37,987 bases of DNA from Ignavibacteriales bacterium (lineage in GTDB: Bacteria; Bacteroidota; Ignavibacteria; Ignavibacteriales; Ignavibacteriaceae): the NCBI GenBank assembly GCA_012517155.1, contig JAAYVN010000077.1, positions 1 through 37,987 of the forward strand. Direction: 5' to 3'. The notes under the pieces were generated by a model. That model did no database searches, was not told where the DNA came from, and was given only the letters and a program-made list of their open reading frames with translations. The translations under genes and the position numbers were made by a program. How positions within the stretch are numbered: the first letter of the stretch is position 1; the number at the start of each line of letters is the position of its first letter. Below, in pieces: positions 1-37,987 of this stretch.

Positions 1-2190
1 GGCGGTAAACCTTCAAAGGTTGCCCTCGCACTTCCTTTGAATAACGAAGTCATTTGCACAGGTAATTCTGTTACTCTTAAATGGTTCAAAGCCATTTCTT
101 GTGCATCACCAACTTATAGACTTCAAATAAATAAAAATAGTCCAACTGGAACTTTGGTTAAGGATACAACCCTCACGGATACTCTCTTTACTTGGACATT
201 TACTCCGCTTGATTCCTTCTATTGGAAAGTAACTGCCTCTAATTCATTTGGCGCTGGTACTCCTTCTGATCTTTGGAAGTTCAAAATGTGTGCTACTCCG
301 CAGACACCTCAGCTCGTTAGTCCGTGTCAGCAGAATAATATTAATAACGCTCCGGTTCAGTTTATCTGGAGAAAAGCTCAGTATGCTACACATTATATAT
401 TCAGACTATATCAGCATCTGAATCCTGTCCCGTTTATTGCCACAACCCTTACGGATACAATTTACACCGCTGCACAAATACCTATGTGCACACAGTTCAC
501 TTGGACAGTAGCTGCATATAATCCTTATGACACAAGCGCTACATCAACATGCACATTCTCAACTTCTTGTCCGCCAATGCATGGTAACCTCTGGCTCATA
601 GATCACCCGGTTGGGCAGCCCGTCGTTGCAGATACATTTAAACTTACTTTCGGTATTGATGCTAATGCTTCTGATGGACTCGACTTAACTTTCGGTGAGT
701 TTAACGCTACAGTTATCCCGGCACCTATTAGCGGTTTCTTCCAGCTCCCCGTTGCCGGAAATCTTAGATCATTTATCGAATTTAGGGATACCGCAGATTA
801 TATCGTCTGGAGATATAAATTTACTCCTAAAAAATACCCCATGCTGATATATTGGGATCTTAACACTCTCCCGACTGATGGCGACTTCACTATGCGTGGA
901 TTCAATAATCCTAATGTCGGCAACATTAACATGAGAACTGTTAATTACTTTAATGTAACTGACACAACTGTAAAAGAACTCGAAATTGTCTATAGCAAGC
1001 GACTATGCGTTGATTGCGATCTTAGACACGGCTTCCAGTTCGTATCAGTCCCTCTGCGTCTCGATAAAATGAAAAATTACCAGAACACATTCACAAATGC
1101 TGCACTAAATCTCTATGTCTGGGATCCTACCGCAGTTGGTGGTGCTGGTAACTATTACCTCCTCGACACTAATTATGTCATGCAGAACGGTGCCGGTTAC
1201 CTCCTCTTTATGAATATTCCTGCTCCTCCTTATACCAAAACCGTTCAGCTTTGTGGACTCAGAGTTCCCGATACTACCAAGATTTATCTGAATCAGGGTT
1301 GGAACTTGTTCGGTATATTCAATCGTCCGGTCCTTCTTGGAAAACTTAAACCATCAACCACTAATCTTCTTAGCACAGGACTCTTCTATAAATACTTTGA
1401 CTCACAATCCGGACAGGTTTACGATCCCGTCGCCACCTCCTTCGATCCTGCTGTCGGTTACTGGGTAAAAGCTAATACCTCTGGATATCTCTATATCGAC
1501 AATACTTTGGTAACCAATAATGATGCTACTCTGCACGCTCAGGTTACTCTCAAAGTTCAAGATAACTGGGGCAAACTCGTTGTCACAAATCCCGATAACC
1601 TCGTCAGAAATCTCTATATAAAGACTGACGATAATAAGGACGTATTCGAACTGCCTCCGGCACTTCCGTCCCAGGTCTTTGATGCTCGATTTGCTGACGA
1701 TACTTATGCTCAGAATCTTGATAAACCCCAGAGGATAAGAATTAACGGAAACAAATTCCCGATTACTCTCAAGGCTGATGGTATTGACCTTGAAATTCGC
1801 GATGCCCAGTCCAACGGAAAGAACCTTAAAGTCTCCCTTCGAAACGGCGAGTCCTTTACTCTTTCCAATGCTTCGTTCACCGAACTCCTGATTTCCAAAC
1901 TCGATGTTCCTACTGAGTTTGCTCTGTCACAGAACTACCCGAACCCCTTCAACCCAACCACCATGATTAAGTTCGGTATTCCTGTTGACTCTAAAGTCAC
2001 TCTTAAGGTATTCGATATGCTTGGTCAGGAAGTTAAGGAAGTCTTCTCCGGCGAAATTAAGACTGGCTGGCATGAAATTGAATTCAATGCAACAGGCTTG
2101 GCTACCGGTATGTACATTTACAGAATAGAAGCAAAGGGAGTTAATGGTCAGGACTTCTTCTCAACAAAGAAAATGCTCCTCATAAAGTAG
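1..2190 (+). CDS. T9SS type A sorting domain protein, 5' end cut by window edge
   Basis: The frame is open from the first base, so this is the last 729 residues of a longer secreted protein; the TTG at 37 is only the first possible start and is not believed to be the real one. Seen: two fibronectin-III-like modules in roughly residues 1-95 and 100-190 (repeating pattern of TDTLFTWT / QFTWTVAAYNPY), then beta-rich modules with the FELPPALPSQVFDARF stretch common in large exported proteins of this group, and a C-terminal sorting domain of about 90 residues starting at QNYPNPFNPTT and ending in KKMLLIK. Known: such C-termini direct cargo through the type IX secretion system to the cell surface. 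No catalytic domain is visible in the part present; it may lie upstream. The coding strand is unusually C-rich compared with genes further right. Confidence 0.9.
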   Translation, partial: GGKPSKVALALPLNNEVICTGNSVTLKWFKAISCASPTYRLQINKNSPTGTLVKDTTLTDTLFTWTFTPLDSFYWKVTASNSFGAGTPSDLWKFKMCATPQTPQLVSPCQQNNINNAPVQFIWRKAQYATHYIFRLYQHLNPVPFIATTLTDTIYTAAQIPMCTQFTWTVAAYNPYDTSATSTCTFSTSCPPMHGNLWLIDHPVGQPVVADTFKLTFGIDANASDGLDLTFGEFNATVIPAPISGFFQLPVAGNLRSFIEFRDTADYIVWRYKFTPKKYPMLIYWDLNTLPTDGDFTMRGFNNPNVGNINMRTVNYFNVTDTTVKELEIVYSKRLCVDCDLRHGFQFVSVPLRLDKMKNYQNTFTNAALNLYVWDPTAVGGAGNYYLLDTNYVMQNGAGYLLFMNIPAPPYTKTVQLCGLRVPDTTKIYLNQGWNLFGIFNRPVLLGKLKPSTTNLLSTGLFYKYFDSQSGQVYDPVATSFDPAVGYWVKANTSGYLYIDNTLVTNNDATLHAQVTLKVQDNWGKLVVTNPDNLVRNLYIKTDDNKDVFELPPALPSQVFDARFADDTYAQNLDKPQRIRINGNKFPITLKADGIDLEIRDAQSNGKNLKVSLRNGESFTLSNASFTELLISKLDVPTEFALSQNYPNPFNPTTMIKFGIPVDSKVTLKVFDMLGQEVKEVFSGEIKTGWHEIEFNATGLATGMYIYRIEAKGVNGQDFFSTKKMLLIK

Positions 2191-2216
2191 TTAGTTAGAC
2201 AATACCTCCCAAAGGT

Positions 2217-2246
2217 AAGGATGCGGTTCGCCGCATCCTTTTTTTT
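2217..2246 (+). terminator. Rho-independent terminator of the first T9SS gene
   Basis: A 10-bp perfect stem (AAGGATGCGG / CCGCATCCTT) closes a TTCG tetraloop and is followed by a run of T. It lies 26 bases after the stop codon. A UUCG-type loop on a GC-rich stem with a U-tract is a textbook intrinsic terminator. Confidence 0.95.
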
Positions 2247-2396
2247 ATCCTTACCCTGCAAAAACCTCCTCGTTTATTCAATAAATCTCCGAATTCCTTC
2301 CTGCGCACCCATGTCGATGACATTGGAATTAATCCGCAAATCCATAAATACCGCCACCTTACCCCAAAATCCCTCTTATATTATCCCTCCATTACT

Positions 2397-2440
2397 GTAA
2401 AGCCGTGGTAAAACCGTACTAAAGCCGTGGTAAAGCCGTG
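2397..2440. repeat. Four tandem 11-bp units
   Basis: Units are GTAAAGCCGTG, GTAAAACCGTA, CTAAAGCCGTG and GTAAAGCCGTG, head to tail without spacers; units 1 and 4 are identical. The period of 11 bp is the same as in two unrelated-sequence arrays at the other end of the window (36530-36595 and 36703-36746). Confidence 0.9.
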
Positions 2441-2597
2441 CTTAAGACCTCATAAGCCCACTTTTCAAACCCCTCTCGGTCCCCCCAAAAGACCGGTTTA
2501 CCAGGGCAAATCTAAACTTATCCCCTAATCCCGGTCCCCCGATACCACATCTTTTTCTTTTTTTCTCTTTGGTCTCGCTTAATATCCGAATTTTCTT

Positions 2598-2605
2598 TAT
2601 ATTTG
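2598..2605 (+). promoter_or_regulatory. Possible Bacteroidota-type -7 element (TATATTTG)
   Basis: TATATTTG matches the TAnnTTTG consensus exactly and sits about 140 bases before the ATG of the C39-like peptidase gene. There is no TTTG at the expected 19-bp distance upstream (the bases are TCGC), so the assignment is weak. Confidence 0.3.
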
Positions 2606-2745
2606 AACCGCTTTTTTAATAAACTGAAACTCGGTTAATCTGCAGTTCCTGGTTTTCAGGGATTTTGCAACTTCAGGATTTTGTAAGCAACTTTATTAAT
2701 ACTTTTAACTAATAACAGGAAAAATAATTTACATCTTTCACTAAA

Positions 2746-3582
2746 ATGAGTTTTTACCCTCAACCCTATAAATATCAGTGCGGACCATTTGCTCTTAAAT
2801 ATGCCCTCGTTATGCTTGGACAATTTAAAGATGAAAAAGAAATTAGCCTTAAAGCAGGCAGCAGTTGGTGGTATGGAACAGATGAAATCGGCCTTGCCAA
2901 AGCAGCTCGTAGTAATAAATGCAAAATGAAACATTTCAAAAGTGAAAAAAAAGATGAAGCACTCCGCATTCTGATTAATCACTTAAAAGAAGGATACCCC
3001 TCCATTCTTAGCGTTGAAAATTGGGAACATTGGTTGACTGTTATAAGCTATCACAAGAATAAATTCATTGCCATAGATAGCGACCTCGATAAAGTTATTG
3101 TGATTTATTCCCCTAACCAGCTGCTTAAACGCTGGAAATATTCTGACTCTGATTCCGGCGAGGTAAGCTACGATGGCTATGCAGTTATTCCCAAATACAA
3201 AGTTCGCACCAAAGCCCACTTCTCCCTTGAACAGGCCAGATATGTCATGCGCGAATCAAATCGTGAACTTGCTGAAAAATGGGATAAGTATTTTAACGAC
3301 CTCATCAACATCTGTAAACCGATGAATGGCTATCTCCAGCGGACTATCTCATTTGCTGAGTTCCTTCGACGATATGAAAAACTCCTCGTTACCCAAACTG
3401 CTAATTGGCACGGTAGCCCAACATATCCCGAACTTAAAAAGATACTTAAATATATGCGCTTCGTTGCCGAGGTATACGATTTGGTCATTTCAATTAAAGA
3501 TCAGAAAAAAACCCTGGTGGATATCGCTCTTCTTCTTATGATGTACTCCTGCGGTAAATACGGAATGGATAAAATATATTAA
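2746..3582 (+). CDS. C39-like (papain-fold) cysteine peptidase family protein, cytoplasmic
   Basis: 278 residues. The N-terminal half reads as a peptidase C39-like domain: the oxyanion Gln and nucleophile in YQCGPFALKYA (Q11, C12), the histidine in ENWEHWLTVIS (H95) and the acidic partner in FIAIDSD (D111 or D113), in the order and spacing of the papain fold. There is no signal peptide or membrane segment and no attached ABC transporter, unlike classical C39 bacteriocin-processing peptidases. The C-terminal 120 residues are helical and not recognised. The gene opens a run of plus-strand genes (methyltransferase 16 bases downstream, then glycosyltransferases). Substrate unknown; it could be a peptidase or a transglutaminase-like relative with the same fold. 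Confidence 0.75.
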   Translation: MSFYPQPYKYQCGPFALKYALVMLGQFKDEKEISLKAGSSWWYGTDEIGLAKAARSNKCKMKHFKSEKKDEALRILINHLKEGYPSILSVENWEHWLTVISYHKNKFIAIDSDLDKVIVIYSPNQLLKRWKYSDSDSGEVSYDGYAVIPKYKVRTKAHFSLEQARYVMRESNRELAEKWDKYFNDLINICKPMNGYLQRTISFAEFLRRYEKLLVTQTANWHGSPTYPELKKILKYMRFVAEVYDLVISIKDQKKTLVDIALLLMMYSCGKYGMDKIY

Positions 3583-36439: not shown

Positions 36440-36529
36440 GAGATTAATAAAAATGTTTAAAATGTAAAAGCAAGGTAAGGAAAAAAAATGAAAAAATAGA
36501 TGGGGGGGCAAGGGTTAAGTGGGCATTAA

Positions 36530-36603
36530 TAGTCATTAAGTAGTCATTAAGTAGTCATTAAGTGGTCATTAAGTGGTCATTAAGTAGTCATTAAGTGGTC
36601 ATT
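36530..36603. repeat. Six tandem 11-bp units plus flanking partial units
   Basis: Units TAGTCATTAAG or TGGTCATTAAG occupy 36530-36595, varying only at the second base (A or G). A degenerate unit precedes them (36520-36529) and a partial unit (TGGTCATT) continues directly into the hairpin at 36601. Confidence 0.95.
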
Positions 36604-36691: not shown

Positions 36692-36746
36692 TAGGCTGTT
36701 TATACCTTATTTGTACCCTATTTATACCTTATTTGTACCTTGTTTA
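36692..36746. repeat. Four tandem 11-bp units of a second family
   Basis: TACCTTATTTG, TACCCTATTTA, TACCTTATTTG and TACCTTGTTTA fill 36703-36746; a degenerate fifth unit (TAGGCTGTTTA) precedes them at 36692-36702. The sequence is unrelated to the other 11-bp arrays; only the period is shared. Confidence 0.9.
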
Positions 36747-36842
36747 TATAGTAATTTGGGAGAAATGGAGGACGGAGGGGCGGAAGAAAGAGAAAAAGAT
36801 TAAAAGGTGTGAACGGTGAAGAGCGAACAGTCATTTATAGTC

Positions 36843-36861
36843 ATTCCGACTCAGTCGGAGT
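36843..36861. repeat. Hairpin/palindrome, copy 2 (ATTCCGAC-TCA-GTCGGAGT)
   Basis: Same outline as the copy at 36601, including the T-G wobble at the second pair and the preceding AGTC. One inner pair has changed from A-T to G-C on both arms, so pairing is preserved. Confidence 0.8.
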
Positions 36862-36897
36862 CGTTTGTAACGGAAACTGGGGACGGATGAAAAAAAA

Positions 36898-36921: not shown

Positions 36922-37050
36922 GGCATTAGGTTGAATGGATGAATTATTTTTAGAAAAGAATTGGAAAATTTCTTTTTTATAAATAAATTTGTAACATAAA
37001 TAATTTGAAGTTGGAGACAGAATTCCAACGAGGTAAAATAATCTTAATAA

Positions 37051-37127
37051 TCACGTGGATCCATGTGACTTACCCGACGGAGCATTCCCAAAACCGTAAA
37101 TGATTCTCAAAACATTTGAGAGGACGG
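37051..37127. other. Foldable segment upstream of the first four-helix-bundle gene
   Basis: Two elements: an 18-base palindrome TCACGTGGATCCATGTGA (37051-37068; one G-T mismatch pair) and a two-tier hairpin at 37094-37127, outer stem CCGT/ACGG and inner stem TCTCAAA/TTTGAGA around ACA. No known RNA family was recognised. Confidence 0.55.
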
Positions 37128-37134
37128 AAAACAG

Positions 37135-37182
37135 AGGTAGAGGTAAAGGTAGAGGTAAAGATAAAGGTAAAGGTAGAGCAGG
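37135..37182 (+). repeat. Hexamer tandem array ending at a start codon
   Basis: Seven units of AGGTAG or AGGTAA (one AGATAA) run from 37135 to 37176, then a degenerate unit AGCAGG abuts the ATG at 37183. The units contain AGG, so the array itself supplies the purine-rich ribosome-binding region of the gene. Every unit carries a stop codon in the frame of that gene. Confidence 0.9.
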
Positions 37183-37542
37183 ATGTATCATAGTTTTAAG
37201 GAAATGTCAGTTTGGAAAAATGCAATGATAGTTGCTGAAAAGATTCACGACATGACCGACCAATTACCCAAGAAAGAAGATTACGGTTTTACATCTCAAA
37301 TAAGACGATCAGCATTGAGCATTTCTGCGAACGTGGCAGAAGCATACGGAAGAGAGCACTCAGCAGATTAAATAAATTTTTATTTTTATGCAAGAGGATC
37401 AGTAAAGGAAACCCAAAGTCATTTGGAATATGGTCAAAGAGTAAAATATATTACAGAGACTAACTTCGAATTAATTAACGCTGAACTGATTAAGATATAT
37501 AACGAATTAAATAAAATAATAAAGACCTTAAAAAACAATTGA
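37183..37542 (+). pseudogene. Four-helix-bundle (23S rRNA intervening-sequence type) protein gene with in-frame stop
   Basis: The frame from the ATG at 37183 reads FKEMSVWKNAMIVAEKIHDM, QIRRSALSISANVAEAYGRE and then meets TAA at 37369-37371. The same frame continues for 56 more codons to TGA at 37542 with the expected second half of the family (INFYFYARGSVKETQSHLEY ... ELIKIYNELNKIIKTL). The stop stands where family members usually have Lys (AAA to TAA is one change), so the gene is most likely a recent nonsense mutant; together the two parts make 118 residues, the usual length. Members occur in 23S rRNA intervening sequences, as Avd accessory proteins of diversity-generating retroelements and, mostly, as isolated genes of unknown role. 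Read-through or a sequencing error is not excluded. Confidence 0.85.
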
Positions 37543-37860
37543 ATTCCTTTCAAGATATTCTAAATATTTAGCTATGATAAATACTTTGTGATATAATCTG
37601 CACTCCATATTCCGGTATCCGGATTCCATATAATTAAATTCTTCATACAGTTTTGTTGCTAATCACACGAAAAAATTATTTTAAAAACAACCTATTATCT
37701 TTAGAAAAATTTTAGTAAATTAGCCAATTAAAATATGCGGAATTCAAGAAAAGTGTTGAATTTTGCAACAAAAACCGGGTGTCGCAAAACGAGGATGTGA
37801 CTCACGCGGCGGAGCTGTGAGAAAAAGTCCCGCCACAGCGTAGGAAGAGTGAATGGATGA
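37543..37860. other. Intergenic region between the two four-helix-bundle genes
   Basis: AT-rich and without a convincing gene up to about 37740; two overlapping minus-strand frames of about 25-33 codons occur but cannot be supported. CCGGTATCCGG at 37612-37622 is a small palindrome. From 37741 the composition changes to GC-richer foldable DNA described separately. Confidence 0.6.
37741..37840 (+). other. Foldable segment upstream of the second four-helix-bundle gene
   Basis: AATTCAA/TTGAATT (37741-37747 with 37756-37762); TTTTGCAACA/TGTCGCAAAA (37761-37770 with 37780-37789, nine of ten pairs); CTCAC/GTGAG (37801-37805 with 37817-37821). The loop of the last hairpin holds GGCGG (37808-37812), complementary to CCGCC at 37830-37834, which would make an H-type pseudoknot; alternatively GCTGTG (37814-37819) pairs with CACAGC (37834-37839). 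The foldings compete. No known RNA family was recognised. Confidence 0.5.
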
Positions 37861-37878
37861 ATGAGTGAATGGATGAAT
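37847..37878 (+). repeat. Tandem 8-bp units (2 x 16 bp) running through a start region
   Basis: GAGTGAAT and GGATGAAT alternate four times. The candidate start codons of the truncated four-helix-bundle gene (ATG at 37861 and 37873) lie inside the array. Confidence 0.9.
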
Positions 37879-37987
37879 GAAGAACTTTTAAATAGAAACA
37901 AAAATATTAACCGGGGTTATAGAAAACTGGAAGTTTGGAAAGAATCCATAGAACTGTTTATAATAGTCAGAAAAAAGATTAGAGAAC
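37861..37987 (+). CDS. Four-helix-bundle family protein, 3' end cut by window edge
   Basis: From ATG at 37861 (stop TGA directly upstream) or ATG at 37873 the frame stays open to the window end and reads NRGYRKLEVWKESIELFIIV then RKKIRE, the first helix of the same family as the interrupted gene at 37183 (compare YHSFKEMSVWKNAMIVAEKI). The first residues come from the tandem repeat. The two copies share only family-level similarity in helix 1, so they are not a fresh duplication. Function unknown. Confidence 0.7.
   Translation, partial: MSEWMNEELLNRNKNINRGYRKLEVWKESIELFIIVRKKIRE

Follow-up and report, generated by a model that had tools for sequence, protein, structure and literature searches.

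Two genes for small four-helix-bundle proteins lie at the end of the DNA analyzed here, each with a short tandem repeat that runs into its start codon. Do such a repeat and such a gene form a unit, and if so, of what kind? The window, by which we mean the whole stretch of 37,987 nt, is an entire contig (G000:C149), and its end falls inside the second gene. Our reading, to which we give a probability of about 0.6 as a whole, is that the window carries two copies, both of them damaged, of a small element made up of a short degenerate repeat array, a PF05635 gene and an inverted array. This element would be a non-rRNA counterpart of the intervening sequences (IVSs) of rRNA, and its two arms would be kept matched mainly at the DNA level. 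The features discussed are as follows.

37063..37082, plus strand: copy 1 of the 20-nt word ATGTGACTYACSCGRCGGAG, before element 1; thought not to be part of the element
37135..37182, plus strand: 5′ arm of element 1, eight AGGTAR-type hexamers, the last one touching the start codon
37183..37542, plus strand: gene 1, encoding a PF05635 four-helix-bundle protein; nonsense codon at 37369-37371, 3′ arm not found
37795..37814, plus strand: copy 2 of the same 20-nt word, before element 2; thought not to be part of the element
37847..37880, plus strand: 5′ arm of element 2, four 8-bp units; inverted partner beyond the window at C145:737-801 (minus-strand match)
37861..37987, plus strand: gene 2, N-terminal part of a PF05635 protein; truncated by the contig end and interrupted on C145 by a GIY-YIG ORF (L008:258-500)

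The eight-hexamer array that a first-pass annotation had described before gene 1 was confirmed. It reads AGGTAG AGGTAA AGGTAG AGGTAA AGATAA AGGTAA AGGTAG AGCAGG, i.e., six exact AGGTAR units, one AGATAA and one degenerate unit, and it abuts the ATG at 37183. According to a profile search, residues 1 to 62 of gene 1 match PF05635 (23S_rRNA_IVP) with an E value of 5.8e-19; two solved structures, 2GSC and 2RLD, match the same profile. This result bears out the annotation of gene 1 as a four-helix-bundle gene, though its frame is broken by an in-frame TAA at 37369-37371, after which it stays open to 37542. No array complementary to the 5′ array of gene 1 was found within 3 kb (arm score, 21; the scoring is described below). 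Over 38 nt, however, the 5′ array showed 92% complementarity to the 3′ arm of L002, an intact two-armed paralogue of gene 1 on contig C145 with an arm-pair score of 48. The two loci were 85.5% identical over 392 nt and had the 5′ array and the gene in common, and not the 3′ arm. With the stop position excluded, dN between gene 1 and L002 was 0.071 and dS was 0.760; the break in gene 1 is therefore probably recent. Gene 1 appears to be a decaying copy of the element.

The repeat at 37847-37880 consists of GAGTGAAT GGATGAAT, twice (TRF period 16, 100% matches, score 68), and the candidate ATGs of gene 2 fall within it, in agreement with the four 8-bp units annotated earlier. Contig C145 and the end of the window overlap by exactly 141 nt. 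On the joined contigs, the arms of gene 2 gave an inverted pairing score of 47, and the best of 96 mismatched downstream flanks gave 34. The annotation of gene 2 as a four-helix-bundle gene held in part. Two PF05635 pieces were present on C145, at 21.4 and 24.2 bits, both below the family cut-off of 33.8. A GIY-YIG ORF (E value, 3.9e-13) lies in the frame, where it separates profile position 47 from position 49 and interrupts the most conserved part of the gene. A perfect 12-nt inverted repeat, CCCCGTGAAATA / TATTTCACGGGG, flanks the insertion (L008/C145 215-513). When the 12-nt boundary word was searched genome-wide with one mismatch, 14 occurrences were found versus 11 for the backward control, so that there was no excess. 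Gene 2 appears to have been invaded by the GIY-YIG gene. The same contig (L008) has a GxxExxY gene (TIGR04256) at 1468-1839 and, at 1998-3436, a small-gene island adjoining the window, which carries a type VII toxin-antitoxin pair of the MntA/HepT kind along with two short ORFs that we take, by eye, to be HicA/HicB-like. Elsewhere in the genome, G000:C76:7836-8076 (L360) is a direct array of about 240 nt with a unit nearly that of the gene 2 arm; it has no PF05635 gene and ends in a palindrome.

The layout proposed in the first-pass annotation was a foldable element followed by the repeat and the gene. However, the supposedly palindromic, foldable DNA before the two genes, at 37051-37127 and 37741-37840, folded no better than dinucleotide shuffles (z, −0.99 and −0.72, respectively), and 37045-37130 had no second copy elsewhere in the genome at an E value of 0.1. 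We therefore rejected it as part of the unit; what recurs is an arm, a gene and an inverted arm. The 20-nt word ATGTGACTYACSCGRCGGAG was rejected as a marker of the element as well, since a third near-copy with one mismatch, at G000:C83:8118-8137, precedes a gene that we take, by eye, to be cas6-like. The gap before gene 1 also holds two 11-bp tandem arrays and TCCGAC..GTCGGA-type palindromes (36515-36603, 36699-36748, and 36841-36862), and similar palindromes occur within arrays on C145. With 26 TRF rows in the window, short tandem repeats are no rarity in this DNA, and a repeat in front of a gene counts for little by itself. The pairing of inverted arms on either side of the gene, by comparison, is well above chance.

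This downstream inverted arm had been overlooked in the earlier annotation: the reverse complement of the upstream repeat follows such genes. The genome to which the window belongs has seven PF05635 matches, and L002, L004, L005, and L007 each have an upstream short repeat with its reverse complement downstream, the unit being different in each. The arm scores of L004 and L005 were 51 and 55. PF05635 was found in 53 of 59 relatives, with up to 20 matches per genome among the matches listed. To obtain the arm score, up to 400 nt upstream of the gene were aligned locally with up to 400 nt downstream of it, the latter in reverse complement. As a threshold we used 34, which is about the 99th percentile (33.7) of mismatched pairs from the first 37 loci; those 37 are also among the 93 loci scored. 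The relatives' set of 97 loci comprised the 7 from the genome of the window and the best-ranked next 90, with strong matches over-represented, and seven pairs among them were less than 3 kb apart. Loci with short flanks or missing gene bounds were left out (4 of 97 PF05635 loci, 4 of 30 cold-shock loci, 2 of 30 GIY-YIG loci, and 2 of 80 GTDB loci). Gene starts were placed by a simple rule, with some ATGs off (by 24 nt in L002 and L003).

Inverted arms with a score of at least 34 were found at 44 of the 93 best-ranked PF05635 loci from relatives. That score was reached by 1.4% of 2325 mismatched pairs and, in direct orientation, by 4 of the 93 loci. In a GTDB set with named organisms, taken as the best 80 of at least 589 PF05635 loci, 34 of 78 loci had inverted arms and 12 of the 78 reached the threshold in direct orientation; among 1950 mismatched pairs, 1.3% did so. 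On viral contigs (L302-L323), inverted arms were found at 16 of 22 PF05635 loci, five of the 16 being near-copies of two elements; the level for mismatched pairs was 4.5% of 462. About half of the PF05635 loci stayed below this score (49 of 93 in relatives and 44 of 78 in the GTDB set). None of the 26 cold-shock genes from the same genomes had inverted arms, and GIY-YIG genes from these genomes scored mostly in direct orientation (23 of 28, versus 7 of 28 inverted). The comparison of homologues that had been proposed with the first-pass annotation therefore gave an enrichment of arrays and inverted pairing around PF05635 genes over both mismatched pairs and these two gene families, and not upstream regions like any others. 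GxxExxY genes (30 loci, L102-L131) had inverted arms at 13 loci and direct ones at 7, with 5.3% of 750 mismatched pairs. Their inverted arrays have a CACGGAG/CGCAGAG-like sequence without a 7-nt period, and these genes may constitute another class built on the same plan. For GIY-YIG genes, four tandem arrays of constant spacing were observed, with equal scores within each array: G018:C1:120132-122135 (450 nt), G001:C1:2945594-2947066 (315 nt), G025:C1:1733881-1734727 (317 nt), and G025:C1:1384667-1385513 (323 nt).

The elements sit, as a rule in sense orientation, between co-directional genes, several of them inside recognizable operons. Taking as the neighbor the longest ORF within 900 nt, which is a rough rule, both neighbors were co-directional with the PF05635 gene at 73 of 82 loci in relatives and 68 of 75 loci in the GTDB set (loci with both neighbors called). 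The corresponding numbers were 7 of 25 for cold-shock genes, 10 of 26 for GIY-YIG genes, and 24 of 27 for GxxExxY genes. On viral contigs, PF05635 genes were co-directional with both neighbors at 2 of 20 loci and antisense to both at 11 of 20. Judging from translations by eye, we place L015 between nuoA-nuoB-nuoC and nuoD-nuoH, L283 between fadB-like and fadA-like genes, and L061 downstream of isocitrate-dehydrogenase-like and HD-like genes, with an aconitase-like gene following it.

The closest described kind of element is the 23S rRNA IVS, and the present elements, as a non-rRNA variant of it, may work alike. No Rfam match at gathering thresholds was found in the window or in 20 tested of 199 PF05635 loci. 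Without an rRNA match, their location led us to file them as a non-rRNA variant and not as rRNA IVSs. REP/REPIN-RAYT and IS200/IS605-type elements are small intergenic units bounded by hairpins. Our elements share these features with them, but in gene 1 and L002 only PF05635 / TIGR02436 scored above the cut-off; the searches against Pfam and NCBIfam matched no transposase family, the Y1 (HUH) transposases included. In the parts of the Coxiella burnetii report drawn on here, the 23S rRNA IVS has a 28-bp terminal inverted repeat with the S23p ORF in the loop and, before the ATG, two or three GACAGAT heptamers depending on the strain; RNase III cleaves the stem, and the authors consider it unlikely that the S23p protein is produced in vivo (PMC4990558). 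As far as those parts describe it, the likeness extends to the protein family, short tandem repeats at the ATG, and ORF decay and, for gene 2, L002, and somewhat under half of the family loci but not for gene 1, to inverted repeats around an ORF (PMC4990558). Unlike that IVS, the present elements lie between protein genes, and their arms are arrays differing from element to element. TAACTGA-type heptamers, in the passages of PMC4679880 concerned, form degenerate direct arrays, often just before start codons and long between genes. Degenerate heptamer arrays often upstream of start codons are common to both, whereas the arrays here are inverted pairs around one gene family and those in the passages of PMC4679880 are direct; the term "four helix" is absent from the main text of that paper. 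Avd of diversity-generating retroelements resembles PF05635 as a remote relative, according to a passage of PMC10053308, but gene 1 and L002 were far below its cut-offs (bAvd, 15.6 of 40 bits; DivGenRetAVD, 19.6 of 80). In the passages retrieved from the open-licence PMC literature, we found no description of inverted repeat arms around chromosomal PF05635 genes.

Arms at shared sites were also compared. Loci with both flanks in common formed site groups, 236 direct pairs giving 24 connected groups, and within each group arm pairing in 120-nt flanks was compared within an element and across elements. Independent drift of the arms since insertion would give equal within and cross pairing. The arm match was higher within than across elements in 239 of 268 comparisons, which are not independent of each other, with 22 the reverse and 7 ties. 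By site group, within exceeded cross in 17 of 24, with 5 the reverse and 2 ties. Of four large site groups placed on a quick tree, three were not single clades, namely the nuo group (4 changes), the fad group (9 changes), and one more (8 changes), and thus repeated insertion or replacement may contribute to this excess. A branch with support 97 separated the TCA-operon group, with the ungrouped row L041 inside it, from the rest of the quick tree; the arm pairing of this group was 41.0 within versus 22.0 across elements, a difference for which 5 of 5040 permutations were as high. Arms at the same site thus differ between species and match within each element. Sharing of arms across a genome was rejected, since cross-element scores of at least 34 were reached by 2.4% of the 250 pairs taken from one genome and by 0.8% of the 8680 pairs taken from different genomes. 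Between PF05635 genes at the same site, dN/dS was 0.04 to 0.66, many dS values being near saturation; the protein is under purifying selection.

At what level are the arms kept matched? They could be selected as a stem in operon mRNA, acting as an RNase III site or in stability or translation control, with the DNA match as a by-product. The co-directional sites favor such selection, and so does the cutting of the Coxiella IVS stem by RNase III, as given in part of that report (PMC4990558). In predicted RNA, the arms paired in all 34 elements tested (at least 12 pairs; median, 43), and with a swapped downstream arm at least 12 pairs were formed in 21 of 34 (median, 18). A register test gave P values of ≤0.05 in 22 of 35 elements, a count biased because high-score elements were chosen and the best-aligned stretch was shuffled. 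However, selection for an RNA stem should favor G-U mismatches, and these were not above A-C mismatches: counted in sense RNA over 119 elements with a score of at least 30, three near-copies left out, there were 118 G-U and 122 A-C mismatches (G-U share, 95% interval 0.43 to 0.56). Upkeep of the arms at the RNA level is not supported by this even balance, and the arms are therefore more likely kept matched at the DNA level. The copies on viral contigs, being mostly not co-directional, also speak against RNA-level selection, which we consider unlikely.

The first-pass annotation had suggested a mobile unit, and occupied and unoccupied sites as well as copy pairs gave support to this. Thirty nuoC-nuoD junctions in relatives were inspected. 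The element was present in six (448 to 575 nt), another PF05635 element in one (1400 nt), and in one a remnant (127 nt) that by eye has a four-helix-bundle-like frame end and a 3′ array. Eighteen junctions were only 1 to 111 nt long, and four were left unscored since the nuoC motif used did not match. Copy pairs were filtered for at least 75% identity and flanks of more than 250 nt with no other match, and 29 pairs passed. Among these, L074/L078 and L002/gene 1 were the only pairs matching through the gene or to its last few codons; the homology covers arm-gene-arm in the first pair and arm-gene in the second. The 84% identity of L074 and L078, which lie in the same genome, begins 53 nt upstream of the gene and stops 32 nt downstream of it; their flanks were unrelated, with no match beyond the arm-gene-arm stretch. 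A third pair, L028/L033 (99.5% over 386 nt, in two genomes), was set aside as proof of mobility, both genes being near contig ends.

The arrays of PF05635 genes have a period of their own. Autocorrelation peaks were found at 7, 14, 21, and 28 nt in the upstream flanks and at 7, 14, and 21 nt in the downstream flanks of all three PF05635 sets; no 7-nt series was found in the flanks of the three control families (GxxExxY, GIY-YIG, and cold-shock genes). The arm units in the window are 6 and 8 nt, compared with this 7-nt period of the family. TRF found tandem repeats on both flanks of 32 of 97 PF05635, 2 of 30 GxxExxY, 5 of 30 GIY-YIG, and 0 of 29 cold-shock genes. In 400 kb of G001 there were 13 intergenic heptamer arrays; 2 were within 300 nt of HMM-found PF05635 genes, 3 were near more divergent PF05635 ORFs, and 8 were without a PF05635 gene. 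In the same genome, the start of an AT-rich contig (G001:C1:1-7500, L371) is GC-rich and may be foreign or the product of misassembly; near 2832-2990 it has, by eye, a gene-free pair of inverted heptamer arrays with a short loop.

Could the inverted arrays be ordinary dispersed repeats, with PF05635 genes inserted or tolerated in their loops and the arms not belonging to these genes? Arrays without a PF05635 gene do occur (C76 and G001), and GxxExxY genes are also found between inverted arrays (13 of 30). However, the 7-nt period is tied to PF05635 and not to GxxExxY, GIY-YIG, or cold-shock genes, L074 and L078 have arms and gene in common and nothing else, and in the unoccupied nuoC-nuoD junctions, mostly 1 to 111 nt long, no array was noticed. 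We regard such landing in existing repeats as quite improbable. It is far less probable again that the unit is a contingency locus, in which slippage of the upstream copy number tunes translation and the inverted downstream copy is secondary; the repeat does abut the start codon in the window, and the number of heptamers varies by strain in the Coxiella IVS as partly reported in PMC4990558, but the inverted downstream copy and the joint change of the arms are left unexplained. Least credible of all is a match by composition between purine-rich repeats before starts and unrelated pyrimidine-rich ones after stops, for although repeats are common in the window and upstream flanks of PF05635 genes are C-poor and G-rich, mismatched pairs of the same composition reached the threshold in just 1.3 to 1.4% (two large sets), and mismatched pairs scoring as high as true pairs were looked for and not seen.

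We therefore return to a small element whose arms and gene belong together. The family of such elements is widespread in bacterial genomes, and its tiny members are probably mobile. Transcription, cleavage, movement, and re-copying are each steps that we infer from sequence. The element would move as one arm-gene-arm unit and ride on the transcript of its host operon, in which the arms would pair as a stem and leave the gene in the loop between them. By analogy with the rRNA IVS, this stem may be cut by RNase III. The match of the arms would be kept mainly at the DNA level by re-copying of one arm from the other, through template switching in a hairpin; alternatively, the matching at the DNA level might reflect a DNA hairpin used in mobility. 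A more far-reaching reading, possible but put forward tentatively, sees self-templating mobile elements that carry a four-helix-bundle gene in a DNA hairpin and whose fast-drifting arms are continually re-copied from each other. Each insertion would then have its own arm sequence, with the 7-nt period common to the whole family, the rRNA IVS would be just the case that landed in rRNA, and the GxxExxY genes would be a parallel second class.

PF05635 is named for its rRNA home, and here its genes are found, with a similar architecture, between protein genes, including those of nuo-, fad-, and TCA-type operons. The element lends itself to testing as a unit: its ends are defined, its sites are found both occupied and empty, and its two arms change together. 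Three separate matters may be linked by it, namely the rRNA IVSs, the heptamer arrays found ahead of start codons, and the functionally uncharacterized "four helix bundle" genes. Should the arms indeed be re-copied from each other, this would be an unusual way to keep the ends of an element matched.
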